Source: Sistotremastrum niveocremeum HHB9708
Taxonomy: Eukaryota > Basidiomycota > Agaricomycetes > Sistotremastrales > Sistotremastraceae
Reading direction: 5' to 3'
Assembly (NCBI GenBank): GCA_001630475.1
Contig: KV419399.1
Location: 1,134,365 to 1,198,364 of the forward strand
Length of the DNA: 64,000 bases
Shown piece after piece: positions 21,036-53,531 of this stretch (its first letter is position 1; every line of letters begins with the position of its first letter). Both the position numbers and the translations under genes were made by a program. Under the pieces are notes generated by a model. The model was not told the DNA's origin and made no database searches. It was given only the letters and a program-made list of their open reading frames with translations.

Positions 21036-24000
21036 ATGTCCGCGTCTGCTGTTTCTCTCTCTCAGCTCGATCTCGCACTTCTTCCACCGCGTCGACAGAA
21101 AATTCTACTTTGCGCCCCCATTGTCAACACTGCCTGGCGTAGCTCCTCCCTCATCTTCCGACCTCAGTTTTGGTTATCCCGCCCCAACCTCTCGTTCGCG
21201 CAGGCCGTTACCCAATACGTGGACGGATTCCAGCCTGATCCTGGCCATCGGACACTGTTTCAACATCTTGGACAGCAAATCGACGAATTCGAGTCTACGA
21301 TCGATCGGGATTCCTCTCTAACTGACATTATCTGTGAACCTGGCATTGACAATGATATGTATCCGACACAGGACCCTGCCAGAAAATGCATCCGTCCCTA
21401 TATGCTCTGCGTTCTGCTGGATCGGCTCCTCTGGTCCTTAGAAGACGATTTTCTCGTACTTCCTCCCCAATGGCATCATCCACACTCGACCGTCCAACGT
21501 GCTGATTCTCGCATCTTCCAAGCTCTAGAAACCCTTCCCGCAATCACGCATCAGTTTCTCGTTGACATGGCCGCTTCAGCTTCCGACGAAAACGCCGACG
21601 TGATCGCCATGACCTCTCCCTCGGATTCTCACGTCGCAGCCAGTTTCTACGAGAAGGGAGCAACCTCTCATGCCAAGGGCAATATCCATCACATCACATC
21701 ACATTTTATGTATTGGTGCGGTACCGCCATGGTGGCTGTCAAGGTGTGTCCACCAAATCCTCCCGCATGTAGATCCTTGTTGATTTCCTGATGCTGCTTC
21801 AAGGGCTTTCCCGCCGGCCAATACGAGGAGATTGTTGACATCATTCGGCAAGTTCAATCCCCTTCCTTGTCTTTCTCTTTGACCAATACTCTCTTTCCCA
21901 GGGAGCGCGCCTCTCCAGACCTACGTCGGAAACTCGATCACGACTTGGGATCAATGACATTTCGAGGGCTCCAACCTTTCTTCACAACGATCGCGCACTC
22001 ACCCATCACACTCTTCTCTCCTGCTTTCTTTGCTACAAACAGAACCAGACAAAAGTCTACCGTTGCGGAATGGATGCAGCATGTGGGATGGGCACATTCG
22101 TATCCCAGGCCAGTTCTCAATATTGAACATTCTCTCTGGCAATGTCTCCGTAACGTCGTTGCCGCCGGATTTCAATCCGTCGAGGCCACCACTTCCTCCC
22201 AACATCAGCGGTCCATTGCATTGCTCACTCTCGAGCATATTCCTTTTGGACCACTCCAAACAGCCATCGACGTTCTCCATGACAGCAGCACGGATTATGT
22301 CGCGCATCCTCAGGAACCCTGGCCATTCGATGATTTTGCTCCACCGCCTTCCTCTGCGCAACCGAGAACCCCATCTCCCCCTTGTCCTACCCCTGGTTTT
22401 GCTCGCTTCGCCAGTTCTCCCGACCCCCAGGCCCGTCAGGATACCTATCGCCGACTGGCACATGCCCAGATTCAGGCCCCTGATATGGTCTCTCCTTCCC
22501 TTTATTACAAAAAACAATCCTTCCACTCATCTCTGCTCCCTCCTTAGACTCGTCCCATCCAAGCCAAGTCCAGGAAACGCAAGCGCCGAAATACGCACGT
22601 CGACTTGGTCCGTGAGACCCCGAACATACCGAGCCGCGCATCAACCCAGCCTCCATTGAACCCCACCGCCGCATTCCCGGCTCCTTTGATGCCGCCAAGA
22701 GTCTCAACCTTCTCAACCATTGATTTAGACCTTCCGGTTTTCCCCTTCACAGAAGAAGTCATCGTAGGCCAATCTCACGCTCCTTTTCGTCTCCCTCCCC
22801 TGATCATCTGTTTTTCTCTCTCATCCAGTTGCTGCTGGAATATAGCTGCCACATCACCAGCACATACATGCTAGACGACGACGAGTACACAAACGAGGTC
22901 GAAGAATACGAAATCCAATCTGTCTCTGTAAGCCCGGCTCAGTCCCTCCCCCCTTTTGAACGTCAATTCAACACCTGGCGTGACCGACCGCAGAACCGAG
23001 ACAACCAAGATCTGACTGATATTCTCCAGCAAGCAAACGCGGACGACCATGACAGCGTACAGCTTGCTCCCGATCACTACTTTGTCTCTTATAATGGAAA
23101 TCAGCACCGTCAGCTTCTGGTCGACCCCTTGGAGTCTATATGCAAATTCTTCACCCTTTACCCCCCAGCCGACGCCAGATACACACTCAATCCACAAGTC
23201 GCCCGTTCTGCAAGCCTCAATCTATACACTCGATCTCTGCTATACCACCGATCCGATCGACCATCGCAGTTCCGAACGACGATTGGCGACTTCGTTTCCG
23301 CACCGCTATCACATCGTCTGGGCATGTGCCTGAAAAATCTAGCCGTACCTCATGAACGTGCTGAAATCCCTCTGCCTGTTTGGTGCGTATGACAGACATC
23401 TCGAAACCATTCCATGTCCACTCAACCTGGTAACAGCGAATTGTCCTGCCTATCGTTTGCCATGTCTGGCACAGCACAGCCTCCCTTTGATCCTTCATCC
23501 TTCGTATCTCTGTCCATCTACTCTCAGAGTGCCTTTGACCGATTGAGTTCCTCACCTTGCGGATTCGCCACCTGGATACGGGTAGCTTACGGTGTCTTAT
23601 TGGTGGCCACCATTCCGGAGAGCATCGGGAGCAACGGCTTCATACTTCCCCAACACGTCAACTATCAGCACCAATCCTGGTCCTACGAGGTCCTTCACAC
23701 CGGCGATGCCTAGTGAGCTCGTTCCTACTCATCCCCGAAGCGCTTCTCATGCGCTTTGCATCTAGTATTCTTCCGCCAGGTTCCGTTTACTGCATCTATG
23801 CCCTGACGGACGCCATTGCCAGGAAGGGATTTTTTTATTCTTGGTCAATGATGCGACTGAGCATGCACAGCGACATTGTCGACCACGTTCGCCAAGTCCC
23901 TATCCCTAGGAACCTCTACCATGCTGCCGAGCTTTATCGACATACTTTAGCGCATACCCTCGCCGACATCATCTCCGCCGACAATGCTTTGGGTGCCTCC

Positions 24001-24355
24001 GAAGAGCGGGAATGGTTACTGTTCCCGAGATTGGAGAGCGTGGCTTGTTTGTGTGCATGGATCCGGCTGCACGCAGTTATCCAACCTACCCTCACACGGG
24101 GAGATACTCCTCCCTCACTGGACAGCAGCAGGACCGCCGCCTGTGAACAGGTTTTGCGTTTCAAAGACCTTCCTCAATACCGTGGCTTGTCTCTGGAAGT
24201 GCGTGAGGTCCTGGATCCCATGCAGGCCACTTTGCAGTATGTGCTTACTTGACTAGCTCTTGTCCCTCTCCTGATCTCATCTCTGCAGATCATGCATGTG
24301 TCGCAGTTGCACCCTGCAGAAATCGCCCTTGTATCTCTCAGCTGGTGTCTCTTAG
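21036..24355 (+). CDS. Family A protein, copy A1 (complete, eight exons)
   Basis: I do not recognise this family. Exons 21036-21743, 21804-21847, 21902-22487, 22548-22763, 22829-23382, 23437-23712, 23766-24236 and 24289-24355 give 973 aa. The intron after exon 2 appears to be GC-AG (GCAAGT). The N-terminal helical domain has NTAWRSSSLIF and CVLLDRLLWSLEDD. A second helical part (about 250-340) includes HSPITLFSP and EHSLWQCL. A disordered linker follows with a basic signal KSRKRKRR near residue 453. The C-terminal domain runs through a WIRVAYGVLL strand, EVLHTGDAYILPPGS and a helical part, and ends in C954-x-C956-x-x-C959. All motifs recur in the other copies. The NLS suggests a nuclear protein. 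It lies 337 bp after the recombinase-helicase gene and 144 bp before B1. Confidence 0.7.
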
Positions 24356-24498
24356 CATCTGTGCTTTATCCACATGTAATTATATAAGCTTCAGAGATCC
24401 AAATTCGATTCTACTTTGATGTATTCATTTAAAACACAATTTGGAAACCGGTCGGAGTTACGGAGCTCCTATTCCACCCCAAGTCGTAATTCAGAGAT

Positions 24499-25981
24499 AT
24501 GACTAGGTAGAGACTCGTTCGCATTTGGATTGTCCCCCGGGGTTGACTCCTCCACATAGCTCAACCAGAACCCCCCCTTCGTCACCGCCAGGTCCCGTGA
24601 CTCGCCGGCCACGTCACCGATTAAACGATGAGCCCCACGAAGATGAAGCAGAAGGAGGACCAATAGACCCTCGCTCCCTCAGCGACTTGCAGGACCACTA
24701 TCTCATCGCATCTTCCTCCCGGTCGGAAGCGGAATACAAGCAGAAGCTGGATCATGCCATCCAGCCTTTGTCCCACACGTCAGCCTCATCCAAGTTCCAA
24801 CCATCGCCCATTTCGCTCCCCTCTACCGACGGCGACTTTGTTGCCTTTCTGGAGCAGCGCTACGGAATAAACTGGAGTCGTTACGGGACTGTCAAGTTTG
24901 ATCGGGAGCTTTGGACGCAGAAGAAATCATTGTTTGGGTTCACGTCTGTCGACTCTCCCACTTCTACCGTCGATTACACTACATCGTCCGCTTTCATGGC
25001 CTCTCTCACTGCGCCATGCGGCCAACAATCGTATGATTTCCAAGATCCAGTCTCCCAACTAGCCTCAAAGTCCTTTCCCTCGCTCAGTTCAGTCTATCTC
25101 AAACGGACAGATGGAGAAACCATCCGGTTATACTGTCTCTCGTTCAAACCGTCCCCCCAACACCTCGTCATTCCTAAAGCCGTGGACGTTCTCTCTCTCT
25201 ATCGCCATGAACCCGCTTTCGTCGATCTCTCGGATGCGGCCAACTTTCTTCTGCGGCTCGGCGCTTGCTTTGCCATCATGCAGTCCCCTGATGATCTGGG
25301 ATCCACCAAGACTGCTGCCCCAACGTGCTCCCCCGACTACATGTTTTCGGATCACATGGAGCCCATGCTCGTTTATCGCAGTGTTCCAAGCAAAGATCAT
25401 CGCCACAACGCGACTTTGTATGAAGACTACCAGCGACGATGCCATGCGATCATGACGAGACCCCACGCCCGTGTGGCACTGTCATACGGCGGCTTCATCG
25501 CTCGCATCGCTCGAGAATATATCGATCCGGCAACCTTTCTCGCAGGTCCTTCAGTTGACGCTATGACGCACGGACGCCTGTGGGCAGTCTCCAACGGATC
25601 GTCTTCACTGATCGATGACGTGTTGACCAAGGGGGAGCGTAAAATCATTTCTGGCACCATATATCCTCGTGAGTCGTCCCTGTCAGCTTACATCCACCCT
25701 GCTGACATTGCTCAGTTCAAGGCCGTGCGGTGCATTCGTACTGGCCACCGCTACATTTCTGGACCAAGGTCCAATGTGCAGTCGATATGGGCTACTGGTC
25801 ACCCGCCCTTGAAAGCTTTTTCGTAGAACAGCATAAGGCCTACAAGCAAGGTCGACCTCCCCCTATGCTGGCCTGGTGGCGAAAGTGGATTGGTAAACTA
25901 CAGGGTTATCGTGTCAGCTTCCGAGACAACGCTGAAAGAGCAGCTTCAGAGTTTCTTGATGCCAAACTCTCGCATGTGTAA
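24499..25981 (+). CDS. Family B protein, copy B1
   Basis: I do not recognise this family. The main open frame has no early Met. A tiny first exon 24499-24506 (ATG ACT AG) with intron 24507-24559 restores the frame; exons 24560-25668 and 25716-25981 complete 460 aa. The first 110 residues are low-complexity and rich in P, S, D and E. The core has VAFLEQRYGI, RRCHAIMTRPHARVAL, GGFIARIAREY, LAGPSVDAM-x-x-G, DDVLTKGERKIISG, and after the last intron HSYWPP, GYWSPALESFF, WWRKWI. The same motifs in the same order occur in B2 and B3. Compared with B2 it lacks the N-terminal 170-residue region. The tiny first exon is inferred only from phase; the core model is firm. Confidence 0.6.
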
Positions 25982-26005
25982 ACTACGATACTAGATTTAT
26001 TCGTC

Positions 26006-29000
26006 TTAATAAGCATGTAATCCATATTCATTCGACATTGCCAGACAAAGACACAGTCTCAGCACAAGACAGAACAGACCAAAGAGATGCAGACAGACCC
26101 CAGACCTGTCCCGACCGACATTACCGTATGTTCGCACGTCCCCTTTGTGCTGGGTTCCCTGATCCTCCCCTGCCAACTTTTCACCTTCTGCATGCATCCT
26201 GAGCATCATCGCATACCCCCTATCGGCCACGTCTCCGATCTTCCCGCTGACCAGTTGGCTGCAACGATTGAAACAGATCAACCCTCGGCGTCCTCAGCGT
26301 TCAAAGCGCTCACCTCCTCCACCATCCCATCACATCCGCTTTGACAAAGGTTTGCTCGTCCAGGATCTTCAACAACTCAAAGTAGAATGCCTGCACATCG
26401 AATCCGTCCCCTACGTCCAATTCTCCCAACAGAACCACAGCGATCTGAATCTGAAAACCCGGAACGCATTCATGAGAATACAAACTTACCAGCGCAGTTA
26501 TGTATGCGATGGACTCAATAGTCAAGTCATCGTTTGAGATCTGTCCAGCGTTCACAGTCTTCCACAGCTACCGCGTAGTCAGACGACCAATGCGCATGTT
26601 CCTATACCTACACTCACTCTGACGATAAAAGGTGACTTGAGAATATCGGCCATAGGTGTGTGCTTGTCTTCCACGGTGCAATCCAACCACATGAACATGA
26701 ACATGTCTTTGTGCGTCACCTTGATAGTCTTCGAGATCAATTGAGCCTTGACACTGGCCTCGAAGATGAGAGAGACCATATAAACGAGAACGGCGAGAGA
26801 CACTGACCTGGGGTCCTCCCATTCGAGAGGGTAGGGGGTGATCCAACGTCCGATTCGATCCTTGTTCGCCACGAATTGCGGTGTTAGAGCCTCTCTGATA
26901 GTGAGTACATCGGCAGCGCGCTGCTCCTTGCGACCAGCATCGTACTGAGTTCAGCGAGCTCTCGAATGGGTATGCAGTATAAACACAGAGAGAGAGAGAG
27001 ACGCAACGTAGACACACGCATATACCAGGCGAGGATGCAGTTCTTCAACGTGATTTTGCTTCCCCAGGAGTCCCACATAACGACTCATCGCCTCTTGCTC
27101 AAAAAGCCAGGTCACCTCTTTCAAAACGCGCCGCATCCTGAGACAACGCAGTTCTGTTAATTCACCGTAGCGAAGCGGAGGTGAATTTAAGTGTCCGGTT
27201 CTTCTCTTACGTCATCACGGGGTTAGCGGCGGAAAGGGAGTGCTGGGGGGCTCTCGGATTGAAACTTGTGCATCTGGGATGTCGAGCGTCACTACTCCTT
27301 TTCCTCATCGTTTTTCCCCAAACTAAAGAGACAGATTTGATCTATATACTCTATTGTTCCATAATATCGCGTTCTAGCTGCCCATCCTTGAAATTGAGCG
27401 AGTTGGATCGACGCTGTACCAGCCCGCTCAAAGGCATCCTCGGATCTATCGGCGATGGCCTGGTGACGCAATGCCGTGACCAGCCGTCGACGCGCTGAGG
27501 GCGCTCAATTAGGCGCTCAACGTAGGATCGCGACCTTTGGCTCAGATCGAGAGATGTTGGGACGAAAACAGAGTCTGCGGGCAGCTTGAGCAAGGTGAGT
27601 ACATTATTCGATGATCATTTCTACACTACTCTTAACGGTGACCACCATCATGCCAGTCCATCGCGCGTGCAAGCTGTACCTTCGCTGTCTCAGATGTAAA
27701 GAGAAGCTGACAGACCCTGCCGACGTCCACCAGCATCAGCAACGACATACTCACTGCCCCATACTCACTCCTCCTCCCGATTATTCCTCTGTGGAACGGT
27801 CCTGCGTCACATGCGAGGTCAAATACCCTGAAACCGTACAGCATTATCCCCTCCTCTTTCAGCACCCTCGGCTCACCCCACGGCCACCCGACGATTCTGA
27901 CCTGCGATGTCACCGATGCATCACGAAGAAAACATGCACAGGGTGTTGGAAATCCAAATCCTTATCAGAATTCGACGTAACACGCCATGGGACTATAAAG
28001 GCGGCTTGCGTACTCTGCACACTGAAGGAAACGAAACGACGTAGAGAGAAGAGAGAGGCTGCAAAAGGTAATCCTTGACGAGCAAGACCATTGACATGTC
28101 TGATAAATCTGCCTCCGTTCAGAGACTCGACGCTGCAAGTCTTGCAAACAAATCTTGCCGTACTCCCACTTCAATCGATGGGGAGAAACACAATGGAGAC
28201 GTGATTGCAAGGGGTGCCAGGGCAAGGGAGACGAGATGCAGAGAATGGAGAAACAGTTGAGAGATCATCAAGACGAATTGGATGAAGCAGAGGCACAAGC
28301 TGTCCTTGACGGCGAAACAGCTCTCGACGAAGAAGACTACTGGAACGAATTTGACGAGCTTGACACCACTGCTGCCGCTGCGAGCGATCCCATTGCCCCT
28401 GAACCTTCTTCCGACACCTTCTCTGCTCAGAGTCACGAAGTCGCCGATAAATTCAACGAATCCATACAATCCGTTCGCTATGTCGATTGCGATATCTGTA
28501 GCGAAAAATTCTGGACCGTGAAGCATGACAACACGAGATGCGATCGATGCCAAAGGTCTACAGCGAAAGGCAAGAAGTATTCAGCAGAGAATGATATGGA
28601 CCCAGGTGCGAGTACTGCATATAGTGCCTTGGATGAGCCATCTAATGACCAATTTAGGGAAGGATGTGCCCGACTGCTTGAAAGATCTTACAGATCTTGA
28701 AGAGCAGATGATCTCTCTTACAAAATCGGTGATTCAAGTACGCTACGTTCGAGGAGGGCAAATTCGATATCAAGATCACGTATGCAATTTCGTACAGCAT
28801 GTCGAAGAGCTGCCTCCTCAACTCGATAACGTACCCCAGCACCTCCCCCGCCGCCCCTCCGATCTCGACATTGTTTTAATCCGTCATACAGGCGTAGATC
28901 TCAGTCGACATATCGATTTCAAAGTCCGGAGGGCGCATATACGAGATGCTCTACGTTATTTGTGCCAAAATAACCCTCAATATCGTGATGTGGTAATCGA

Positions 29001-32000
29001 CGAAGACAGGATCGAAGCCCTGCCGGACGACGGGACAATCGTTAACGAAATTACGACTATTGAAAGCCAAGGAACCCATCGCCCCGAAACCTTACCTGCC
29101 CCTGGACCTTCTCAGAGTGTGGGAAATGCAGAGGAGGAACCTGAAGATCAGATCGACATGCACGGCGGTGTGCTCAACCTGACAGATGATCAACCCGAGG
29201 CTTCTGTCATTAATGACGTCCTTCGCAGGTGTGCTCAGTCAGAGACTCTGCCAGTCGACACGACCATCGTAAGTTCTAAACACCATTAAAAATAAACAAC
29301 TGACTAATTCTTCGTCTAGATTCAGGCTCCCACTGTTGAATCCACACCTATCAACGAAAGAACACCAGGATACATTCTCCGAGCTTTCCCCACCCTCTTC
29401 CCGACTGGCATCGCTGACCTCCATGCACCACGCTCAGACCGAATCAAGACTGCCGATTGGTTTGAACATATGCTCCGCTATTGCGATGGTCGCTTCTCAC
29501 GTCACCGGCGATTTGCTTGGTTCGCCTTCAATACCATCCAACGGGCTCGAGCTGCAGAACACTCCAAGACCTATGTACGTCAAGACATTGGCGAAAGCCA
29601 TCTCACAGTTGAGGATCTGCGTGCCATGATTGAAGCTGGCGATGGTGCTTTAGCCGGTCGAATGATGCGTTATGGTCGACAATTACGGGGTACACGAGCA
29701 TATTGGGCTACACGGCGAGGAGAACTGAAGGATATGATCGACGTACTCGGGACTCCACACCTCTTCATCACATTCTCTGCTGCCGACAAGCAATGGGACG
29801 ATCTACACCAACATATGCCCTTTTACTCCAATCAGCCGCACGATAGCCCTCAAGCTCGATCTCAGCGTACTCGTAGTCTGAACGAAAATCCTCACATTGC
29901 TGCCGGGTATCTTGACCTCCGTTTTCGACTATTCATGAACACGGTGATCAAACCTCTGTTTAACGTCAAAGACTTTTGGTATCGCTATGAATGGCAGGAA
30001 CGAGGTAGCGGACATATCCATGGCTTTCTCTGGCTCGATGGCGCGCCAAATCCTGATGACATTGACTTCTCCCACCTCTCGCCGTCCCCAGCCTCGCAGC
30101 CGCCTAAGGAATCCTCTCAGGAAAACAATCAGAAAATACAAGATTTTGTTGAATTCTGGAACGAGCATATATCGGCTATCAACCCAAGGGTCTTCGACGG
30201 CGACCCAAATGTCCCAAATCTCAGTCGTAGCCCGGTATCAATGCCTCGAGAAGAAATGGAACTCAACGAGGCTCAATTGGCCGATATCGTCAACTGCGTC
30301 CAACGGCATCGAGAATGCAAACCGGGCTATTGTCAGGTCAAACGCCGCGGCGAAGTTGTATGTCGATTCGACTTCCCATTTCAAACGTGCGAGCAAGGAA
30401 GAGTTGGTGTGGATTCACTTGGAAGACCTCGGTTTGAAGCACAACGAAATGATCCTTACACAAACTGCTATAATCCGACCTTGCTCATGCTATGGCGCGC
30501 AAACATCGATATCAAACCAGTTCTGAGCCGCTACTACGCTATCAAGTCAATCTCCATTCACTTCATTTGTTTGATGATAGGCTAATCAAGTATTCTTCAC
30601 ACAGATACATCGCAAAATATGCAACAAAGGCAGAGAAAGATGCTCCTACATTTCCCCATATGCTCGACAAGATTATCCAAGACGCCCCCAACGATATGAC
30701 TGCACAAAGCGCATGTACAAAACTCCTGAATAAAATGCTATCCGAACGCAAATATTCTGCACAAGAAACCCATCATCTATTGCTTGGTCTCCCACTGTTC
30801 CGCTCTTCCAGATCGTTCTCATCCCTCGTGCTAAACAATAACGGAGCACTCCGCCTCATTCGCGAGGAACGTGAAGCAGAAGTTAACGCCGATGAACCCG
30901 CACACGCTGCACCAAATTCTCGCCGAATCGTAACCTCGAAATCAGACCTCGATCGATACCGCGAACGACCTGCAGAGATGGAAGAGCTCTCTTTGAATAC
31001 AGTCCTGCGAGAATATCGATGGGAGAAGAACAAGTATGTTCGACGGCGAGATCAAGATACTCAACCGATTTTGAGAGTATGGCCCCGACTCCCTCCCAAT
31101 CCGGATGGTGAAGCATACGACGAGTGGTGCAGAATCAAGCTCACATTGCATCATCACTTCCGAAACCCTGATGACGATCTATTTGGCATGTACGCCTCAT
31201 GGAGCGAAGCTTTTGCTGCTCGCCTCGGTCCACCCCGAATTCTACCCTCGGATACTCTCTGGAATGATTGGACACCGGATCCGGATCCTAAAGATGAAGA
31301 GGATGACGATGAAGAGGTACCGGGTGAAGATCAGACGATGCATCCTGCTGATTGGCAGGTCCTTGCTGCGTGTTTCCCTGGCCAACAGCTTCCCGAAGAC
31401 ACAGATGAACTAGGCCAACGTCACCTGGACTCCCTTCTCAATACAACAGATGGGTGGAATCGATGGGAGAATAGGCATCGAGATGACATGGGTCAATATC
31501 TGATGACAGCACGAAGGGAATACGAAGGGATACCAAATTCTAGCGAAGAAGACCGAGTCGACATCGACAATCTCGTGTCAGCCCAGCGCCAGATTCACGA
31601 TCAGTATCAGGAAGCATACCAGAAAATCATTGACGGAAACCCCAACCCTCCTTTCGCATTTAACATCGACGGCACTGCTGGGACCGGCAAGACTTTCCTT
31701 ATCAAAGCGATCCGTCAGACACTCGGGGACATGGCCCAAACAGCCAATCGTCCTCACCCTCTTCGAGTACTGGCTCCGTCTGGTGTGGCTGCTTTCAATG
31801 TTGAAGGCTGGACTATACATTCCGCGTTATCAATCCCAGTCCGAATCAACAATAAAGACGAAGGCATGCTTCCTCTCAAGAACGAAAAATTGAAGAAAAT
31901 ACAGGAAGAATGGAAAGGAGTCGAGTTCGTCATCATTGATGAGAAATCAATGCTAGGATTAGCTCTATTGGCTCAAATCGACTCTCGCCTGAGACAGCTG

Positions 32001-33685: not shown

Positions 33686-36160
33686 ATGTCGACGAAGACC
33701 ACTCTGAGACCTAGCCTCCAGTTCTTACTTACCTCTCCACTAATGTGCAACGTCCCTTGGCGTAGTCGCTCTCGCTTTTTCACAGTAGATTACTGGCATC
33801 GGTATACGACGAAAACGACGACGTTTGAGCAAGCCATCCAGGCCTACCTGTACAACCTCCCCGTCACTTACGGCCATCTACAAATGTTCTCCAAACTCGC
33901 CACTTCGATAGACGAACTAGAATGCGCCATCGATAGCCATCCGCACCTCATCACGGAGCTGACCTCGGCCGCCACCGGTTTTCTCCCTCACGCATCAGCC
34001 GAGGATATCTTGGTAAATTTCTCTTCTGCGATCCTGTGCGATCTCCTACTCTGGTCATTGGAGGCCGACTGGGAGCAGCTTCCGATTCAGACTCCTTTCG
34101 ACGCCAACGATGGCTCAGAAAACACCTTGTTCGGCATCGCCTCTGGAATTCGCCAGATCGCCGATAATTATGTTCTCGCGTGTCGCACTTCGAGCATGTC
34201 CCGCATTTCCACAGCCCAAGGGATCTCCTTCACTTCCGCCTTTTCGGTGCTGGCCGAAATCACGCGTTCAACGGCCGAATGTGACGTGGCCACGTCCAAC
34301 ATTTTTCACTGGTGCTCCTGCTTTATGTTTCATCTAATGGTGCGTCCTTTTTTTTTTTTTGCCTTCCTGCCAACCACACTTGTACGATTTTCAGCGCTCT
34401 AATAAATCCGTCATCGAGGACATATATACTTCTTCCCAGTGAGTGATATATATATCTGTAAGTGCGCCTGTGCTTATCGCGATTTTATCATAGGACCGCT
34501 GTGTCCGACAAGCTTGCAATCCGCCTCGATTCCGCTGTATCCTCGCCCTATCAAGAAAGTGAACAGGCTCTCACTCTTATCGCTCTCAACTCCGTGGTTG
34601 AGGTTTTATCACCATCATATCGGTCTAATCTGTCCGACAAGACTTTCGTCCCTGCATCGGATTGGATCGCCCATGCTTGTACAGCCCCCCCTATTCCCCG
34701 GGATGTCCTTGCGTTGGAACATACGGTTCTCAAGGCCATTGTGTCTATCGTCACTTCCGCCTTTGACCGAGACGACGTATTGCGTTTCGCCCTCGAAGAC
34801 CGCGCCGCGGAGGACATTAGACTTTTCGCCATTAACCAGATCGCGAATATACCTGATCCTAATGCACTCTGCTCCCCCCCTCAGGCGTCTTGGGAATGGA
34901 ACGACACAAGCAACTGGCCCCTCTCTCACTCCAGTCAGTTGCTGCCGATCAAATCCTGCATGGACTATTCCATGTGTGACACTCGACCTCTCCCACCTCT
35001 CCATCTGCCAGTCTCGCCAGCTCTTCATCCGCCAGTCTCGCCACCTCGAGCCCTTCCCTTATATTCTCCCCTCGCACACTTTCGGGCAAGTCTTCGATCC
35101 CTCGAGCCCCGACTCGATCGCTTACTCGTCGCTTCGCTTTTTCAGGAATCGAAATCATGCGTTCGGACGCTCCGCTACACCGTCTGGGATCCAGAGGAAT
35201 ACGATTTTCAGTTTCGAAACCAGGAATGGATCATACGCACTGGTCAAACAAGTGCAAGTCCCTTTCCTTGTTCTTTTGCTTGCGCCGGGGGGTTTTTTTT
35301 TTCTTTTATTTGACTTCCATTTTCTAGGCCAACAAATGCATCCATCGGATCCTAACCTCTTCGGAATATGGCTTCAGGAGAGCCGCTGCGTCGCGATTCT
35401 GGCCCTCGATGTCCGATACGTCCGATGCAGTCTATCCGGGCGATATTATCCATTTCTGCGCCGGTAAACACTGCGCACCAGTAATGGAATTTACGACGAA
35501 ATCATGGGTCGAATGCGACCTCGATCCCTCTACCGAGTATCCCCTGTACACGACCCTCCTCAAACGCCCTACTCATCGTGCCGACCTGCGCCTGTTCAGT
35601 CAACTCGCCTCCGCACGGCGACTCGGACTGTATATCCATGATATCCCGACACCAGCGTCATTCCGCACAGTGCCTCCTTTCCTTCCGTAAGTCTCATTCA
35701 ACCATGTCCGCCTCTGTCTCGCATTTATGATTATTTTTTTCGTCAGGACGTCGACCACATCCAATGTGTTCACCACCTCTGTCTTTTCGGCAGGCGCATT
35801 GGCCCATCCTTGGATTTCCCACTCGGAGATGGGGACGTGGAGCCGGGTCGAACAAGGTGTCCAACTGTGGGCATTCATCACGCCGACTCCCACCGGTGGT
35901 CTTTCACCCGCAGACTGCGACTTCTTTCGATTCTCGGCATATCAATGGTCTACTGAGATCCTCCATCCTGGAGACTACATGTACGTCTTTCTTGAACTGA
36001 GAATGCTCGCTGAACGTCTCTCTTTCACTCTCGCAGCGTTTCTCCTCCGTCTTCCGTCTTTTTCATATTCAGCATAACCGACTCCATTAGCACCCATTGC
36101 CGACACGTCACGTCCAATTCCAATGTCAAGCGCGAGCCATCCGAGGAACTTCTTTATTGA
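33686..36160 (+). CDS. Family A protein, copy A2 (C-terminal domain lost)
   Basis: Start ATG 33686. Exon 1 (33686-34339, 218 codons, phase 0) has NVPWRSRSRFF and LCDLLLWSLEADW; exon 2 (34395-34438) is 44 nt, exactly as in A1; exon 3 starts at 34494 and reads SDWIAHAC and LALEHTVLKAIV. Later exons keep the middle strand region (WSRVEQGVQLWAFI) and EILHPGDY. After the next intron, SPPSSVFFIFSITDS aligns to the PPGS-x-Y-C-I-Y-x-L-T-D segment of A1, but the frame stops at 36160 about 20 residues later. The helical C-terminal domain and the C-x-C-x-x-C cluster of A1, A3, A4 and A5 are missing. It is followed by telomere-like repeats, so the end was probably lost by rearrangement. It may be a pseudogene. 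Confidence 0.6.
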
Positions 36161-38935: not shown

Positions 38936-39040
38936 AAGTTCGGCATTTGCCGAACCTTCTCCGTCAAGTCCGTGGACGGAGAACATGGAGTTAAGAGCCA
39001 TTCCTCGGTGCTTAAGTCCATGTTCTCCGTCCACGGATTT
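38936..39040. repeat. 27-bp inverted repeat, second copy, next to a smaller palindrome
   Basis: Arms 38969-38995 and 39011-39037 pair at 26 of 27 positions around a 15-nt spacer, and share sequence with the palindrome at 12691-12759 (CTTAAGTCCATGTT-C/G-TCCG). Just before, GTTCGGCATTTGCCGAAC (about 38940-38957) is an additional perfect palindrome. The block ends about 60 bp before the A3 start codon. Confidence 0.75.
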
Positions 39041-39101
39041 TGCCGAAGTCCCCGACTCTCGACTTCCAAGGTTCGCTCAAGCCACGATCATCATCACTTC
39101 A

Positions 39102-42100
39102 ATGCCTCGCGATAGCCTCGTTGCTCTTCTCTCCTCCTCTCTCTTTGCCAATGTGACTTGGCGCAGCCAGTCCCGCGTCTTTCAGCTATCCTCCTGGACC
39201 AATCTCCCAGCCGAACACACTTGGAGACAAAGGATCGAAGAACACGTTCGTAGTTTCGGAGCTTCCGATGCTACAGCAGCTTTGTTTGTGAAATTCTCCG
39301 AGGCCCCTACGCAGTTGGAGGAGCTATATAGCAAAAAGCCAGCGCTTCGCGACCAGTTGGCGAATGGGAAGTACGCACATGCCTACACCCATACCTGGCC
39401 TAGACAATTCTTCATGTGCGTCCTCTGTGATCTTCTGATGTGGGCCATGGAGCCCGACCTTATCCCTTTCCCCGACCTCACTCCTCACCCCCTCTCCAAA
39501 CCCCTCGGTGTCGACGAATTTCCGTCCATGGACAGTCTCGAATCCCAAGTGTTCGACCTGACGAAGGTCTTCGGATCCTCCAACCCCCGCAACCAGATCT
39601 CTCTGAGCGAGAACAGCGACGCAGCCGTCGTTAAGGAGCTGCTGGACGAGATGTTGCGGAGACAGGCTTCAGGCCGCCTTGGCCAGGTTCGAACGAATCT
39701 CTATCTCTTCACCGCGACGACGCTCGCACATCTGTTCGTAAGTTTTTTTCTGCCCCTTTATCTATTTATCGCTGTCGACAACAAATACCGATATCTCTCA
39801 AACAGGAATGGAGTAAAGGCTACCTAGCCAGCACTCTCCAGTGCTTCCAGCACATTTACGGCCACTGCGAAACCATGCCAGAGTCTAGCCTCGCGGTTCG
39901 CGAATTGTTACCCTATTACCGAGCGATCGTTCACTCCCCCCTCCACTTGCTTACCGACTACGCTCGACTTGGCTCGGCCTCGCACGTGACTCTCGGCCGA
40001 CTGGCTGAGCACACTGGGGTCCGAGAAACCCTGACGATCAACGTCCTCAGCCTTGAAAAGGCCGTCCTCGTCTGTCTCAAATCGATGTTGGCGACCGCGC
40101 CGTCATTTATGACTTCGGGCTCCGATTCCGCCCATTCCTCACCCCCGGATCGCTATGCGTACCCCGAGGCCTTTGAGACACTCATCCAAGCAATACAGTT
40201 CGCCGCAGACCATCCCTCCAGCGACACGTACGAGCCAACAGTCATAGGGAGCTCGACTCCAACCCCCACCTTCACCACGGCTTCACAACCCGCCAATTCG
40301 ACAATCGTGCCTTTGATCTCCACGTTCGACGACCTGTCGCAGTCAAACACTGGAGATCCACCCGCAGCTCAGAGTCTTGACCATACATCCTCGAACGCCC
40401 CCACCAACTCGAACGTCACTCCTTCACAGGATGATGACCTACCTATGTCATCTGATCAGGACGATCAACAGATTCAACCCTCTCTGGCGGCAGAAGACAA
40501 CGGCAAGTCGGCAGCGGAGCACGAGGAGGAGGAGCAAGAAGGAGAGAAACCGGAAGAAGCGTCGTCGGCAGCAGGAGAGGAAGAGTCATCGTCGAAAGAA
40601 GGAGAGGAAGAGTCATTGTTGAAAGAAGGAGGGAAGGAGGAGGACTCATTGTCAGTAGGAGAGAAGCAGGAATCATCGTCGGTAGGAGAGAAGGATGATT
40701 CATCGTCGGTAGGAGAGGAGGAGGATGATTCATCGTCGGTAGGAGGGAGGACAGACACGGCTCAGGACGAGGACGAGGAGGAGCGGAAGGAGACTAACAC
40801 AAGCAAGGAAGTGGGTCGGGCATTGGGTGTTGAGAGCGAAGACGAAGTGTGTGCTACCCAAAACAGTGCCGACAAACAAAGTACGCCAGAGGCAGAGGCC
40901 GCCGAAGAAGAAGAAGAAGAAGAAGAAAAAGAAGAACCCGAACCGGAAGAGTCAGTCGTTGACCCTGAGCCTGAGGAACGCCAGACAGACGGACCAGCAG
41001 AAATAGGAGAAGGATCGGAAGTGCCCATTGTACGCTCGCAACACTCTTCAACCCTCTGCTTTCTGACTCTGACCTCTTGACCACAGCTCGGCAAGCGATC
41101 AGCCAGTGAAGCCGCATCTGCTTCCCCGGCCAAAAGGGCCCGTACAAATACGGACGGTTTTTTGACTCAATTTCTTTCATACTCGGAGGACACGGGACGC
41201 GCTCTTTTTCCTATCGGACCTTCTGTACGTCTTTCTTTTATCCCCCGCTTATTTACCCACCCCCCCTTCCCCTCAGATCGAGCACAAGCAGATTGCCCTC
41301 TTTCCTACAAAAAAGTCTAATGGGAAGAAGTCGAAGCAGACGGCGAAGACGAACAAGACTATTACAATTTCCCAAGTGTCAGGCTACGTGAGTGATTGTC
41401 TATGCTTTGGTGCCCACGATGACCGAAAGACGATTTTGATTACCAGAATTTCGTATTTGAGCGCGTTCATCAGATGACCAGCAGTGCACGTGTATCTAGG
41501 ACCGCGTCAAGTGCAAAGCTACCATGCATCTCATTGGAAAGTTGGACCGACGCTTCCATTAACTTCACGTCCCTCGATTCACACTGTCTCTGCGTCGATT
41601 TTGATGACGAGACACAACGTCACTTCGTCCGCCACTTCCATCTGGATAATGAACTCTTGGCGCCGAGGACTCTTTGGCTAAGTGGTTTCTGGTCGAAGGT
41701 CAAGGTTCTGACGACCTGTCGCCAATTTAACTGGATACCGATGGATCGACGATATGGCCTTTTCTTGATGGAACTTCGTGGTTCGTTACACAACTTGCCG
41801 TCGCCCGTTTCGTAAGACATATGACACACTACGCGATGATCCACTCACACTTCTTCGTCCGCAGAAAAGTTTCTCTGCCTGACTGGCCGCCTGAACTCAG
41901 GGCGTCATTTTTCAACGACCCTCGCATCTTCAGACAGCGTATGCTGCTCTCCACCTCCGCATTGACGCCTACGTTGGAGCCGCCCCTTGGCACCTGCACG
42001 TGGCTACGCATCACCTCAGGTCACGTCTTTGTATTCTGCTCCGATGATGACTTTCATAGTCCGGATAGTCAGCCGAAGTGGCAGTTCCAAGAGTTCCGCA

Positions 42101-42881
42101 CTTGCTCCGAGCTGTCAGTTTATTTCCGATATCACTATGCATCTCTGTAACTCATTCATACCCAGAATATTTCCTCCTGGAAAACGCCTTTGCATATTCT
42201 CTCAGACTGACTCCCAGCTGGAAATAGGGTACTTTTATTCTCGGTACAATATTCAGTCGGCTATGAGGGCTGCCCTCCAACAGCACGTTTGCCAGGGCAC
42301 TATTAATGCTTCACTCTCCGTTGCCTGTGAGGCCCTTCTTCACAATGCCTTACTGACGTATTACCGGCAAATACACTTTACTCCCTTCGATCCCAACGAC
42401 GCGGAAAATTCATCGCTTTACCTTTTCGACCGCCTGCAAGCAGCGTATCTGCTGGCCTGGCTCTTTGTCATGCCAGAAATCATCAACACTGGCGAAAAGG
42501 CCCACAAGCAACTTGCCTCGGTAAGAAGCTCAACCGAGGACCTCATCTTCCTCTTTCACCAGGAACATTCCCTGCACTTATCGGCCACCGACTGGGAGAA
42601 AGCTTTGGCCGAATGCGATGCGATTTTGGCGTGAGTTATCCTATCATCACGTCGCGTGACGGTGTCCTGATTATGTTCGCAGAGACTGTAAATGTCGGAT
42701 ATGCAGAAAACGAGGTACAGAGACGCTCACAGCCATGGCTCTTACCTTTCTAAACCCAGAAAGTGGGTTCGAGCATCAAGGTGCACAGGAGGACAATGGT
42801 TCAGAGCAGGCCTCTGCTGCTGGTTCTGGTCCCGGTTCTGGTTCCGATTCAGAAGACGAGTACACCGGTTCAGAGGAGTAG
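39102..42881 (+). CDS. Family A protein, copy A3 (complete)
   Basis: Start ATG 39102 (an in-frame ATG at 38985 lies inside the palindrome and is less likely). Exon 1 is 39102-39737 (212 codons, phase 0) with NVTWRSQSRVF and CVLCDLLMWAMEPD. The next exon keeps the second helical part (LLTDYARLG; VLSLEKAVLVCL) and then an acidic linker of about 200 residues made of E/S/D repeats (40500-41000). A bipartite basic signal GKRSASEA...PAKRAR follows near 41090-41140. The C-terminal domain has CTWLRITSGHVFVF, IFPPGKRLCIFSQTD, FYSRYNIQSAMRAALQQHV and LQAAYLLAWLFVMPE, and after the last intron CKCRICRKRG. The stop is at 42879-42881 after an acidic, glycine/serine-rich tail. Function unknown; the NLS and acidic linker suggest a nuclear, possibly chromatin or DNA-associated role. 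Confidence 0.65.
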
Positions 42882-43340: not shown

Positions 43341-43488
43341 ACGGCCCTCAAACCGATTAGCGCCGGCGTTCCTTTCCCTGTCTTTTATTCTTTCCATTAT
43401 CACCTCAACATTGAGCACCATTTCAGTGCAGGGCCGGTTAGATCTGTTCCTGCCTTCATTGCCTCTCCGTCAAACACATTTCTACCCC

Positions 43489-46400
43489 ATGAAGATGTCG
43501 CCACCTCCTACTCTCGGTGCTCGACCGACCCTACGCCAATTGATGACCACCGCTTTCTGGTGCAATACCGTCTGGCGCAGCCATTCTTTTGGCCTGTTTC
43601 ATCTGTCGTCGTGGGAATCCCTCCCCATCAACACGACCTGGGAGGAGAGACTCGAACACGTTCTGCACCAGCTCGCTCCCGACATCGATGTCAGGACCTC
43701 ACAGATGTTCCATCGGTTCGCTGCCGTCGCAGATCGATTGGAGAAATCAATAGCCAAGAGTCCCTTGCTCCTGGAGCAATGTTCGTCTCCATTATCCTCG
43801 TTCTATCCGACCACCGCATTCCGTCTTCCCTGGCATCGCGATTTCTTTCTCTGCGTCCTCTTTGATCGATTATTATGGACTCTTAATGATCAAGTCACTC
43901 CTTTCCCATCCGTTTGTCGACATCCCACAGCGCGGGGCGCTGTCATACCCACACTCGCGGATACACAACAACTCCTCAGTCTTGCCGAGGACTTTTGTGA
44001 CACCCAGACCCCACCATCGCCCTCCTCCCAACCAGATTTCAATATTCCGTCTGATCTCCGTCGCTCATACGACTACCTCTCTCGATCGAACGCTGAAAAG
44101 CGATTGGCAACGTTTGATTTAGTCGTTGCTAATTTTCTCTTCGTCACGGTCGTTGCCGTGCTTGGGTTCAACGTACGCTATCGTCCCTACAACGTGTCTC
44201 CCTGACTGCTCTGACCGTCACGTTCATTTAGAATTGGCAATCTGGCCATCTGGATCGAGTTCGACAGTTGATTGCCAGCTCGCCCGAGTCAAAAGAGAAA
44301 TCCTTTCTACTGAAACGCCTTGACCACAATGACTGGGGTATCCGCCATCTCACTCCTTTCGCAAAGTTTGTCGCCCATAGCCCGATCAACGTTTTGGACG
44401 TCAGTCTTCTTGGCCATTCAGACGATCATCCAAAACTTCGCGATTGGCTCCTTCATCTCGGCGCTCATTCAGATATGTCAGAGCGACGTCTCGTGATCGA
44501 GAGACACGTTCTAGGTGCGCTTGCCACCATGCTCTCCGCTGTCACGCAGCCTCGTAGCACGCCCCAGTTCAATGGCCCGATAGACCTTACCCCGAGCTTG
44601 GAGCAGATATCCGGGCTATCCCAACACATTCGCCTCTCCTCTTCCATGCTTTCTCATTATACGCTTTCTTTCGCAACCCCTCTACGCCTCGACCGGCCAG
44701 GATACTCAGAGATCGACATGATTGACGTTGATCTCACTAGAGAGACAGGTTCCCCCTCGCCCATCTCCTTTAGCCCATTCTCAGGCACCGCGGAGAGCCA
44801 TGACACCGGCTTGGTTTGTCCTTTGGTTCTTTCCAAACGCTCAAACGCTGATCCGCGCCTGTATTCAAGCCTCCTCCCAAATCAGACCTAGGGCAAGTCG
44901 ATGAGCGATCTCCCCCCTCTGCCGACATCGAGACCGACGTGAGCATCACCCAGATCGCTCGCTTGCTTCCGCACTCATCATCCTCGCCAGACCGTCATGA
45001 CGCTCGTTATCGTCACCCAAGTGTCTCCATTTATCTCTCTCTCGTTGCCTCTTCTCGTTCCGGTTTCTGGCGTGAGTCATCCCCTCTCCTTCGCATTTGT
45101 CCGCTATGACTCACATCACGACATCGCCGTCGCAACTCCAGCAATACGCGTTATCCCACCTGCGCAATTTTCTGGAAACCGTGCAAGCCAGCGACGTCAA
45201 CAAATGCCATTTGCTTCAACCGCCAGTCTTCACTTCTTGGCCCACGCGATCAAATTCTGAACGTGACCTTTTCGACGGATCCGTCTACGTCATGATCCCC
45301 CCTCCTGAATCTGACAATAATCAGCCTGTGGTCTTTACCCTCGAATATCTCTACACCATACCAGATATCTGTGCCTACGCTAGCCGAGATGTATATTCCC
45401 AGGAAGCGGACGACCATGTTCCTTTCGAGACCACTAGCCTCACGAAGTTCGTGCAACGGCCCTGGCGTGAGCGTTGTGGCTGTTTCATAAAATGTTTGGA
45501 GGCCCCCATCGAAGTTCGATGGCCCGCTCCCGCGAGGTTTCGTCGGTCCCTCTTCGTTTACCGTTCACCATCGCTGACGTGTTCATCCAGGTCCGTCAAT
45601 CTCGTCAATCGCTTGACTTGCCACGTCACTATGAGTACACCCTTACAAAGCCTGCTACATCACCGTCATCTTTTCGCAAAGTACACCATCTGTCCACAGT
45701 ATTGTGCGAGTCTCGGAACGCATAGCTGGTGGCGAGTGATTGTGGGTGGCGGTATCCTCTTCACACACCAGCCTACACCAGAAACTCCCGATATACTCCA
45801 TCTGCATCACGACATCGGCCGATGGGATTATCTCGTTCTCGATCAGGGCACTGAACTGTACGTCTCCGGCATAGCCGTTCCCATACTGTCATTCACTCGT
45901 CGCTCTCAGGTTGTTTCCCCCGGGTCAAATCAACGTCCTGTTCACGCTCAACGATACGATCGTCGAGTGCGCCTACTATTATTCTCGTCTTCATATCCGG
46001 CAATCTTTTCTGGCCGCCTTACAGAGTCATCGCCGCGGAGACCCTAGATTGTCGGACTATCCCACACAACTCGGCGCTCAGAACATTCTCTTTCGTTCCC
46101 TGTATTCTCTTTGGCTGTGCCACGAGTCTCACCTCGAAAACACGCCCATCGAGTACCCTCCCGACCTCGATCGCACCCAAGCCGGTATTCTTGTTGCATG
46201 GATCTGCTACATGCCGTATTTTGTCAATCCGTTTGAAGGAGCCATCCGCAACCTCGTTCCATGTATGCAGGACGATTGCGCAGAATCTTTTGATGAAAAT
46301 CATAAGGCAGACTGGGAGCTCGTCCAGAAAGCCATCAAGGCCATCCATACAGATGCACGCTTAGTCGACCGCGAGTCGATGAGTTGGGCTATGCAAACCG

Positions 46401-46532
46401 CCCGGGACGTCTTCATGTCAGTGCTACACCCCAGTCTCTACGCGCTTTTGCGTATTAATACTTCACAGGGCATGCTCATGCACCTTATGTCGCGAGTGGG
46501 AAGGAGAGCCGTTGATCGGCATTGTCTCATGA
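43489..46532 (+). CDS. Family A protein, copy A4
   Basis: Start ATG 43489. Exon 1 (43489-44172, 228 codons, phase 0) has NTVWRSHSFGLF, LSSWESLP and CVLFDRLLWTLND. Exon 2 from 44232 has AHSPINVLDVSLLGHSDD and ERHVLGALATML. The linker (44700-45100) is short with small introns I could not place exactly. The C-terminal part has HSWWRVIVGGGILFTH, YLVLDQGTEL, FPPGQINVLFTLND, YYYSRLHIRQSFLAALQSH and AGILVAWICYMPYF. After the last intron the frame reads ACSCTLCREWE and stops at 46532, so the C-x-C-x-x-C cluster is present. Function unknown, as for the other copies. B2 lies 931 bp downstream. Confidence 0.6.
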
Positions 46533-47462: not shown

Positions 47463-49214
47463 ATGAGCGTCGATGAACCCATTATCGTCTCGACAGAGAC
47501 TCATTGTGTCGAGTTCTCACAATATCGAGCGAGTCTGATCGCCACGCATCACAAGCGACCTCCCAGTCCTGACACCTGCCGGTTGATAAGCCATCGCCAG
47601 CTGGTTGTTGAGAATCATGGGTTTAACCTTCTGTTACCCAATTCGATTGTCAGGGAATGGATTTGGCAATCGTCTGATAATCGTTGGGAAGCTGTCGAGG
47701 TCTCTGAAGCCTGTCAGCAAGACAGATTCGACTCTTATCAGATGAGCCAACGCTATTACAACGCTCGAGAAAACGAGTGGCACCTTTGCTCCAGTTTCAC
47801 TCAACCTGTCGCACTTCGCGACAGCGTCTTACCCATTGTTAAAGTACATAACCAGATACCTTTGCCCCCAACTCACGCCATTGATCGTCCAACCGCCGTC
47901 GCCGCCGCCGCCGCCGCATCAGCAGTTACCTCCCACGGCGGAGATGTTCCCCAAACATCATCATTTGAAGCCAAAGACACGTTTGTGCCATGGCTGATAC
48001 AGTATTATGGCTATGTGCCACGATCTTGTAGACCGGCATCCACCTACCGATCTGGATCGGTCTCCGTACAGCAATGGATGAACCTTCGCAACGTGTTTGG
48101 GTTTTTCCCCTTTGAAGCAGATGCTGACGCTGTGCCCCTGGATGCCCCCGACATCTGCGAGTTTTACGAGAGTCTCATGGCAAACACTCGTGACTCGGAC
48201 GACTTGTTCGACCTCCTGGCCTCACAACATGAGGGCCGGTTGGAACGGACCAGGCGATCAGCCGGCCTCGCTCGTGTTCAACGCCCAGCAAATCCTGCTT
48301 CGCATGACCCACGTCAACTCTTTTACAAACTCTCTTGGGAGCACCAAACCCATCGCCCATGGAACCTCTTGTTCACCAAAGCTACGCAGGCTGTGCATAT
48401 CTATCGCCAGCAATACCCCAACATCATCGTCGCTACATGGTATTGCCTCGAACACGGGATCGCCTTTTCCACGATGGCGACCAAGAGAGATTTGGGCTCC
48501 CCAGATCCCACCGAGAGTCCGCCATATTGGTGTCTCGCTGGATATCAGGAACCAATATTGCATCTCCCGTCTCGCGACGATTTTACCCAGGCTCAGTACG
48601 CCGCCTACGAGAGACTGTGCAAAATCGTGTTGTCCAGACCCAGCGGTCGAGCAGCCCTGTGTGCTGGGGGGATTATAGGTCGCATCGCCCGCGACTACCT
48701 TCCATTTGAGCTCGCGCTCGACGGACCGTCTCGCGATGCCACGCACTTTGGGCGCAGATGGGGGTTTGAGGTCCACACTGGATCGTACCAGGGTCTCATT
48801 TTTGATGACATTCTCACAAGCGACGTCAGTAACGTCCTCAGCGGACGCTATGTCATACGTTCGTCTCCCCCTTTTTTAAAGTCCTGTCCCCACTGATGAA
48901 ACTTTTTGCTTCTTCTCATTGTAGCCACTCCACGCGGTCAGAACAAGGACTTGCTCCTGCCAGACAGCGTCTATTACTACTGGCCGCCAGATTTTATCTG
49001 GGCAGCTGCCGCTAACAAGCAAAATCTCGGCTACTGGACCCCTCGCAACGAACATTGGTTTCGACGACTTCAGGGCCAATACCGAGCTGGTCTCGCACGA
49101 CCCAAGAAGGCCCAAGAATGGAGAACCTTTTTACGATGGGACCAGAACAAAGCCACCCAACTCAAGAACAACTACGAGAACCTCGCAAACGAGTTCACTC
49201 GCCGCTTTCTCTGA
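47463..49214 (+). CDS. Family B protein, copy B2 (longest form)
   Basis: Start ATG 47463. Exons 47463-48858 and 48925-49214 give 561 aa. An N-terminal region of about 150 residues, absent from B1 and B3, includes VREWIWQSSDNRWEAVEVSE and RYYNARENEWHLC; an alanine run encoded by a GCC repeat follows (47895-47920). The shared core has FVPWLIQYYGYVP, LFYKLSWEH, VLSRPSGRAAL, GGIIGRIARDY, LDGPSRDATHFG, DDILTSDVSNVLSGRY, then after the intron SVYYYWPP, GYWTPRNEHWFRRL and a charged helix. No known domain recognised. The intron sits at the same point as in B1, with identical phase. It follows A4 on the same strand. Confidence 0.7.
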
Positions 49215-49801: not shown

Positions 49802-52800
49802 ATGGTCGCATCGCCAGAGGTCTCTCCTCGCGAGAGAATCTACCGTCTGACGATGTGCCCCTTCTGGTCCAGCACTGTCTGGAGAAGCTCCTCCCTCATT
49901 TTCCATCCTTCCTCCTGGGTCGGAGAAGCGGATCCAAACCTTACCTGGTCGATCCGCATCCTCGAACATATCTCCAAGCTCTCCCACAACCAGCCATCGA
50001 CGATCGCCTTGTTCAAGGCCTTTGGCGACATCGCCGACAAGCTGGCCACTGTGTTCATCGGCAACACCAATCTCCAAAACGATTGTCATCAATCCGAAAG
50101 CGGCTATCCGGATAAACACGTTCAGGGATGGCCTCGCATGTTCTTCACATGCGTCCTTTGCGATCGCCTGATGTGGGCCATGGAATCTCAACTGACACCC
50201 TTTCCAGCCATCTGCAGATCACCGGCCTGCACACCCAAGTCGGTCACAGACTTGACCCCGATCTCTGAATTGGAGGACGCAGCCATTCGATTTAGCCAAA
50301 GCGTCTGTCCACCCAACGCCTCCGGAGACGATCTCGACCAAGTCTTCGTTGCCCATACCATTGGAACACATGCCAAGGCCGTCTCTGATCTTGTCACTTC
50401 CAACTTTCTATACGTCGCCGCCCTCGCCGTGGTCGCATTGAACGTACGTCCCCCTCCCCTTTTCCATCATCGATGCTCATGGTCATGCAGAATTGGGATG
50501 ACAGCTTCATCGCACGCGTGAGATCTCTTTTCGATCACAATCTCATTCCAGCGCACTTTGCCAATGGCCCTCGCCTCGTCACAGACAGCAAGTTTCGCCA
50601 CAACATGCCATACTGGCGAGCGACCCTACATTCTCCCCTCGAGATCTTACGCGAAGATTTGCTTACCAACTCAAAGACTCCCGTTCTGAAAGGCGACTCG
50701 ATCAAAGTACCGTCGTGGCTGCGTCACGTTGGTGCCCTTGACGAACCTCACAGCCTGCGTTCTCTACGCATCGAAAAAATGATCTACGTTCTTATCACAG
50801 AGTTGCTTTCTGCGACATATGAAAAATTCACCATCGACAACAACACTCCTTCCATTGATCTTACATCGTTTCTCGCTCAAATTCCGAAACTGGCAATTGA
50901 CATATCAACTCTCCCTTCGCCCTCTTCCCAAACAGACGCCTATACACCCTCCATTCTTCCGTTTACCCCCCATCCGTCCCCTCAAAGTCTACATGGCCCC
51001 ACGGTCGCAGGATCACCAGATCTGCAAGCCGACCAAGACGACGAACCGTCTTATGCTCCATCTCTTTTCCGCGATGTCCTGACCACCGACCGTACGTCAC
51101 TCTGTTATCATCTCCACCGGTCTTCTCTCGCTGATTGATACCAGTGACTCTGAGCTTGAGCAATCTTGATCTTCAGCCCAAGCCGGTCGAACCCTGCTCC
51201 GAACCTCCGGTCAATACATCGATCGAAACGCCGCAGCATGAACACCCACAGCATGTATGTTGACTCGTTCATCCCCAACCATACGTTTTTAAAATCTCGC
51301 ACAGGCCAGGACAGAGTCCGTGGATCCTCCCCAGCATTTAGCGGATGATACCTCCTCCGCTCACCCTGTGCCGCCACAGTCTCACGAGCACCACCACCAC
51401 CACCACGACGTCGTTCAGCCGGTTTCAGACGAACCAGACGAACAGTCTCGACGTCCAGACGAGCGACCTCCCACTCCGCCCGCATCTTCACCGGCACATA
51501 CACCTCCGCCTCCCGTACGCACCCGCATTCGTTTCCCGTAATCACATCACTGAATTTGTACTATAGAACGAGCTAAAGCGAGCGGCGGGTGAACAATTCG
51601 CAGCAGACCATCCCCAGGTCAAAAAAGCCAAGACCTCTAGTCTTGAATCGTATCTCGATCGAGTTTCCAAAGAACGGATGAATCCTTGCCAATGGGAGAA
51701 CAATCAGTTGGCCCAGGCCGAAACGCGGATTTTGTTACCGACCACCACGGATGGGATCCTACGATTCCACTATCCTTCCAAAGTAATCATCCGGTCATTC
51801 CGATTCGTCCACAAAAGCCTTGCTCACTTCTATCATAGGAATACGAAATTGAATTGTCCGTTCTCCTGTGCCGGGATGAAAATCCGAACCACGTTGGGCA
51901 TGTGAACTGTAGATTCTCCGCCACCACAGGTGCTGTGAGTATTCCAAAGTCTCTCCCTTTTATCTTTCGCATGATGACATGCGGCTATCAGAGCAAAAGC
52001 TTTATCTTGCTAAATCGCATCCTCACTCAGACTGTTGACCCTGAATCGCGCCAGATACTGGCCATGCCTCGATGTTTTCCCTCTGCCTGGCCCACCCAAG
52101 AACGACTTGTTCAGCCATGGAAGCGCACGTATATTCGAATCTCTGTTCGGGGCCCAGATCTCGTGAGACCCCCTGAGAACATCCACCAGTGGATGCCATA
52201 CCTCCGCGAAGTCAACGTGTTTGAACAGCGCCCCATCCGCCTTAACGACGAGGTCATCTCCGGCCTACACTCCACCCTGTTCCAGATATTGCGGGCGGAT
52301 TATCCTACTCGTCGTGCAGTCCATGTCACACCGCTACCAGGCCCAACACTGGAGCAGACACCGTCCTGCATCGCGTAAGTGTTCTAAATCTTCCATCGAT
52401 TCGGTCAGCGTTCTCACTCCTCTCGCCAACACTAGGGATTTGACCGTCGACTCGACTCTCCTTTCTCACTTATCTGACACCTGTGACTTCCATCCCCTCT
52501 TCAATTTTTGCTTTCGATCATTCTTGTCTGTTTCTACTTTAATTCAACCTCCACCGGCGCCGTTGGGAATGTTCTCTCTGTGGGCAGTCAGCGTCGGCAC
52601 AGGATTCGCATTTATATCCAACTCTGTAGCACGGTCGCCAACCGATGACGATGACGTGACACCGCCCGTATTTACCTACGATCTCGTCGATTCCGGTACC
52701 CAGTTGTATGTTGGCCTTTCTTCCGCTCGATCGTCATCCTCCTATTCTGACTTTTGTTTTCTGACAGTCTCCTTCTTCCGGGGGTCTCTTGGCGTTATTA

Positions 52801-53531
52801 CGCTGTTGACGATAGCATCCTCATACATCGATCCTTCTTCTCGAGGTATCATATTCGGGATAGCTTTGAGACGGCGCTGGTCCAACACGTCAGCCTCGCG
52901 CATGACCCCGATCTCGTTCGTCAGGCCGAAGTCCGACTTCACCATATGTTCAAGACGTTCTTGAGGGAATGCGACATTGTATCCACCGTCGACGACGCCT
53001 CTATGACTGACGTTTCCCTCTTACTCGGGCCCATCCAAGCTGCCTATCTAATCGCATGGCTCGCTGTCATCTCCCATCTGACGGTCACAACCCATGAAAG
53101 CAATTTGCGAACACTGCGTCCCGAGACGCAATCCGCACTCAAGTATTCACAGGCTCTTAGGCACAGAGGCCTCGTTGATCGAACTGCCTTTGAGGAAGCC
53201 TTGTCTTACTGCGATGCGGTCCTCCGGTTCGGCTTCTTTTCTTCATTTCCACTCCTGGATCCTGACCCAAACCCTTCTCCTGCAGCGAATGCAATTGTCG
53301 TATGTGTCAGGCACGTCAGGACAAGACCCTTCTCCAGCTCGGATCCGCCGAGTTTCCCGCGTCTTGCCAGGACGTTGGTGCAGACATGATGAACCAATAT
53401 ACGACATTTGGTCAGTGATCACCGCCACTTCCGTCCCTTATCCCCCAATTTTTCCTCATTCATCGACAGGAGAAGACCGTCAATCGTCAACAGAGGATCA
53501 GTCCCTGTTCGGCCACCTCATGTCCTCATAA
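49802..53531 (+). CDS. Family A protein, copy A5 (complete)
   Basis: Start ATG 49802. Exon 1 (49802-50443, 214 codons, phase 0) has STVWRSSSLIFHPSSW and CVLCDRLMWAMESQ. Exon 2 from 50491 has LHSPLEILREDLLT and RIEKMIYVLITELLSATY. The linker contains a six-histidine run (near 51390) and a basic signal ELKRAAGEQ...VKKAK. The C-terminal domain has LWAVSVGTGFAFI, YDLVDSGTQL, LLPGVSWRYYAVDDS, FFSRYHIRDSFETALVQHV and IQAAYLIAWLAVI. After an intron the frame reads ECNCRMCQARQDK, preserving C-x-C-x-x-C, and a final small exon ends at 53531. Function unknown. B3 starts 123 bp after the stop. Confidence 0.65.

Follow-up and report, generated by a model that had tools for sequence, protein, structure and literature searches.

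The window, by which we mean the whole 64-kb stretch of DNA analyzed here, constitutes the final 64 kb of contig C6 and contains five members of one gene family (family A), all on the + strand: A1 (21036..24355), A2 (33686..36160), A3 (39102..42881), A4 (43489..46532) and A5 (49802..53531). Splice sites were picked by hand from reading frames, GT/GC-AG rules and comparison among the copies. The resulting models predict proteins of 973 residues for A1 (8 exons), 1128 for A3 (8 exons) and 1076 for A5 (10 exons), each with a single terminal stop; A1 includes one hand-modeled intron of the GC-AG type (21848-21901). The linker junction was left open in A2 (near 35232-35328) and A4 (44813 to 45139), and the halves of these two genes were therefore modeled apart. 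Searching the genome assembly (111 contigs, 34.7 Mb) with the A5 protein, the A3 exon carrying PPG and the first exon of A4 revealed at least six copies of the family. The sixth, A6, lies outside the window on the - strand of contig C24, near 362-365 kb, and was likewise modeled as two separate halves.

The preliminary description had placed five family A genes in the window, and each has an open first exon at the stated place: 21036-21743 in A1 (236 codons), 33686-34339 in A2 (218 codons), 39102-39737 in A3 (212 codons), 43489-44172 in A4 (228 codons) and 49802..50443 in A5 (214 codons), all on the + strand. The reported length range of 212-236 codons and the phase 0 end extend to A6 and thus apply to six of six copies, and the two motifs described as shared, W-R-S-x-S and L-x-D-x-L-x-W, are invariant in the exon 1 alignment of the five copies. 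In A1-A5 and A6 alike, this exon encodes an all-helical N-terminal domain. No known relative of the domain was found in Pfam, NCBIfam or PDB sequences, and comparison with PDB structures gave no informative fold match. The linker that follows is variable, with basic stretches in A1 and A3 (detected by pattern) and in A5 and A6 (by eye), and with an acidic tract in A3.

JmjC-type domains typically occur in protein-modifying enzymes. Profile comparison identifies the C-terminal stretch of family A running from TWxRV through PPG to FYSR as a JmjC-type (cupin) domain. Together with a helical part, this domain occupies 23437..24236 in A1 (two exons, with a phase-2 intron before PPG), 41865..42630 in A3, 45591..46416 in A4 and 52436..53226 in A5, the most diverged copy. 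In A2 it is truncated (35747..36160), ending after the strand that follows PPS and lacking the helical part downstream of FYS. All five are on the + strand.

Direct searches of Pfam, NCBIfam and PDB sequences left the A proteins unmatched. No Pfam JmjC or cupin model matched any of the six copies above its cut-off; Cupin_1 appeared below cut-off in two of them (E 0.07 and 0.17), and the 11 matches of Pfam JmjC (PF02373) over the genome include none on an A gene. We take the layout of TWxRV, GDxL, PPG and FYS to resemble that of a JmjC-like family of mushrooms, and a hand-written consensus was used to search for relatives in the same genome. It hit four places, with E between 1.0e-4 and 3.2e-4 at three of them; read in frame, these three (L053, L054 and L055) keep HxD and P-G-x-x-H. 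Against Pfam JmjC_2 (PF08007, cut-off 22), one relative scores 22.2 bits and the others 13.2 and 17.6. A profile built from the six A domains and one built from the three relatives align over 101 columns with a probability of 96% (E 4.5e-9). As controls, the reversed A profile gave E 0.38 and family B, described below, E 0.85. A separate JmjC subtype of the same genome matched over 14 columns only (E 0.035).

When the relatives' profile was run against open frames from the window plus nine other genomic pieces, exons of A copies took the first five ranks (A6, E 1.8e-5; A4, 0.008; A1, 0.017; A2, 0.085; A3, 0.32), with the best reversed frame at E 2.7; A5 was absent from the best 20 matches. Among the six spliced C-terminal parts, five match at E 7.7e-5 or better, while A5 taken alone does not (E 0.18 and 0.56). 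The relatives share with family A the strand order, the succession W...GDxL...PPG...Y/FYP/S with a histidine after it, and the phase-2 intron before PPG, which matches in position and phase in L054 and L055 and, judged by eye, also in L053. The sequence comparisons thus support JmjC homology of family A indirectly, through relatives that match JmjC_2. The label "unrecognized family" in the preliminary description stands as far as direct Pfam, NCBIfam and PDB matches go; its GTxL, PPG and YSRxxI motifs, however, are those of the JmjC-type domain of the same-genome relatives. The sharing of motifs with an already named family, which it had named as something that would refute it, was found in part, via these relatives at JmjC_2, one of them above cut-off. 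Within the roughly 3.2 kb of each relative, we found neither a match to the A N-terminal profile nor a CxCxxC in the coding direction.

Unlike family A, the relatives retain HxD...H. All three relatives have H, D and H in the three ligand columns, a combination found in none of the six A copies, where these columns hold PAW (A5), LPL (A3), YAN (A4), SSY (A1), TSY (A6) and WSF (A2). Given this absence, iron binding in the JmjC manner is unlikely, and the contrast with the relatives indicates that the A proteins are most likely pseudoenzymes. With the iron ligands missing throughout, family A is classed as JmjC-derived and not as a JmjC enzyme.

A C-x-C-x-x-C cluster had been noted at the end of four of the five window copies, which our models bear out: CMCRSC in A1, CKCRIC in A3, CSCTLC in A4 and CNCRMC in A5. 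The clusters stand at 24293, 42687, 46473 and 53290, all on the + strand, near the start of the exons at 24289..24355 (A1), 42683..42881 (A3), 46469..46532 (A4) and 53286..53410 (A5, the last exon but one). A2 has a short C-terminus and ends at 36160 without the cluster; A6 ends in CTCDLC, bringing the total to five of six known copies. As in the earlier description, the cluster has an exon to itself. The motif count is weak evidence when taken alone, with 12 matches in the six frames of the window versus 0-6 in 20 first-order random sequences. The case against chance lies in the recurrence of the position among copies and in its presence in A6, which was not part of the original sample. The cluster offers three cysteines in five of six copies, and a histidine follows FYSR in all five copies that have that part; that this histidine serves as a fourth ligand is our guess from the sequence.

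The window copies share 19-33% identity in exon 1. The nearest copy to A6 is A1, with 48% identity in exon 1 and 42% in the C-terminal part; a tree separates A1, A6 and A2 from A3, A4 and A5 with support of 0.997 (0.989 for exon 1 alone). Intron phases are kept: a phase-2 intron precedes the JmjC-like exon in all six models (optional in A4, where the frame is open), another lies directly before PPG in all six copies, and a third precedes the cysteine exon in the five copies that have it. Codon position 3 differs more than position 2 in 30 of 30 comparisons, which cover 15 pairs in two regions and are non-independent. At 15-48% identity, silent sites among the copies are probably saturated. The third-position excess, the kept intron phases and the recurrence of the cysteine exon in A6 support the earlier proposal of old duplications retained as genes.

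A second family, B, accompanies family A. B1 (24507..25826) is an open frame, B2 has its first exon at 47463..48896 and, by eye, a second to about 49215, and B3 spans 53768..55123, all on the + strand. Three of the five A genes in the window, A1, A4 and A5, thus have a B gene downstream; the 30 kb around A6 gave no B match. Identity is 44% between B2 and B3 and 30% between B1 and B3. Family B has no Pfam match (best E 0.035, below cut-off), and could be modeled only poorly; B-like stretches on C13, C81 and C88 have longer frames, also without a Pfam match. A and B may plausibly have been duplicated together as a unit. An open frame at 57417-58199, which we take to resemble the 2-oxoglutarate oxygenases associated with transposons in fungi, had no Pfam match at E 0.01. 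Between A1/B1 and A2 lies a Helitron (27599-33156) that carries Helitron_like_N together with a PIF1-like helicase, and an inverted repeat was seen by eye upstream of A3 (about 38965-39045). In the frames at 14925-19761 there is an OrsD domain, along with a DEAD/Helicase_C helicase, which we liken to the subtelomeric RecQ-type helicases of Agaricus bisporus reported in PMC7473861.

The contig ends in telomere-like repeats (63960..64000, + strand), in which GGTTAG is mixed with GGTTAGCGG repeats. This end is a variant of a repeat whose exact 19-mer, GGTTAGGTTAGCGGTTAGG, occurs 38 times on 13 contigs across the whole assembly, C6 not among them. All 38 copies sit no more than 142 bases from a contig end and are oriented as in telomeres; 20 of them are at contig starts, and the ends of five contigs hold the other 18. 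Since the 19-mer is confined to contig ends and C6 itself ends in telomere-like repeats, the family A array is probably subtelomeric. The repeat units are a mixture of TTAGG and TTAGCGG in place of TTAGGG, and the string TTAGGTTAGCGG was not found in the literature text searched.

Several other accounts of these genes were weighed. Chance resemblance of an unrelated new fold to JmjC would fit the absence of direct database matches and the finding of the relatives by means of a hand-written consensus; we consider it very improbable, given the controlled 101-column profile match and the common place and phase of the intron. A live oxygenase that uses alternative metal-ligand residues would account for the retention of fold-forming positions, and A2 does have a His and a Glu a few residues away from the HxD place. 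The three ligand columns nevertheless vary among the six copies, with H, D, H in none, which makes such activity highly improbable. Decay into pseudogenes, which the shortened A2 and the open linker junctions of A2 and A4 might suggest, is hardly credible for genes whose spliced A1, A3 and A5 copies stay open across 973-1128 codons and whose divergence is greatest at third codon positions.

A further account, conceivable if unlikely, treats A and B as accessory genes of an element that is subtelomeric or linked to transposons; they would then be maintained or spread along with that element and not for a role in the host. The region does contain the OrsD/helicase pair and the Helitron, subtelomeric RecQ helicases exist in mushrooms (PMC7473861), and the B-like stretches elsewhere lie 2.5-15 kb from contig ends (C88 and C13) or, on C81, some 29 kb away from an end that is telomere-like. 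Against this, just six A copies were found (at least six being present), all old and diverged, and A6 occupies 362-365 kb on a contig of 489 kb, where the surrounding 30 kb contain no B gene.

We therefore favor, with a probability of about 0.7, the reading that family A comprises dead JmjC-type proteins with a helical N-terminus and mostly a CxCxxC tail, which are old duplicates acting as nuclear, non-catalytic binders. These would be large proteins (973-1128 residues in the three complete models) in which the helical domain and a variable linker with basic stretches lead to a JmjC-type domain without iron ligands and then, in most copies, to a short tail encoded by its own exon. We infer that they may act in the nucleus through binding, as a chromatin reader or protein scaffold, and not through oxidation; the cysteines, perhaps with the invariant histidine after FYSR, could form a metal site and so brace the JmjC fold, in the way that the Cys/His zinc site beside the JmjC active region does in KDM4A. 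Old duplication close to a chromosome end would have given rise to the genes, in part jointly with B genes. A more far-reaching proposal, in which A and B duplicate together as a subtelomeric module whose dead JmjC protein, with its metal-braced tail, regulates chromosome-end chromatin non-enzymatically in a fungus with a non-canonical telomere repeat, is distinctly unlikely as a whole.

JmjC-derived proteins are a known kind, and the family A architecture with its dead site looks new; the titles and abstract openings covered by our literature search do not describe the family. An apparently unknown fungal family, kept close to a chromosome end at 15-48% identity, thereby becomes testable as JmjC-derived pseudoenzymes of unusual architecture. 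If the A proteins act on chromatin, they would be a case of local duplication turning the JmjC fold to a non-catalytic use.

Two characterized proteins offer points of comparison, both likened here by description. In KDM4A (JMJD2A), a zinc ion beside the substrate region is held by Cys234, His240, Cys306 and Cys308, according to PMC6010108, so that its JmjC-domain zinc site includes a Cys-x-Cys pair with which the CxCxxC of family A may be compared; KDM4A, unlike family A, is an active demethylase. Fission yeast Epe1, a JmjC protein described in PMC6576747 as restraining heterochromatin, serves solely as a model for how a JmjC-derived A protein could work. By this analogy, a chromatin-associated scaffold role in the nucleus may be envisaged for family A; Epe1 is credited in the same paper with JmjC-mediated demethylation, in contrast to the non-catalytic action that we infer for the A proteins.
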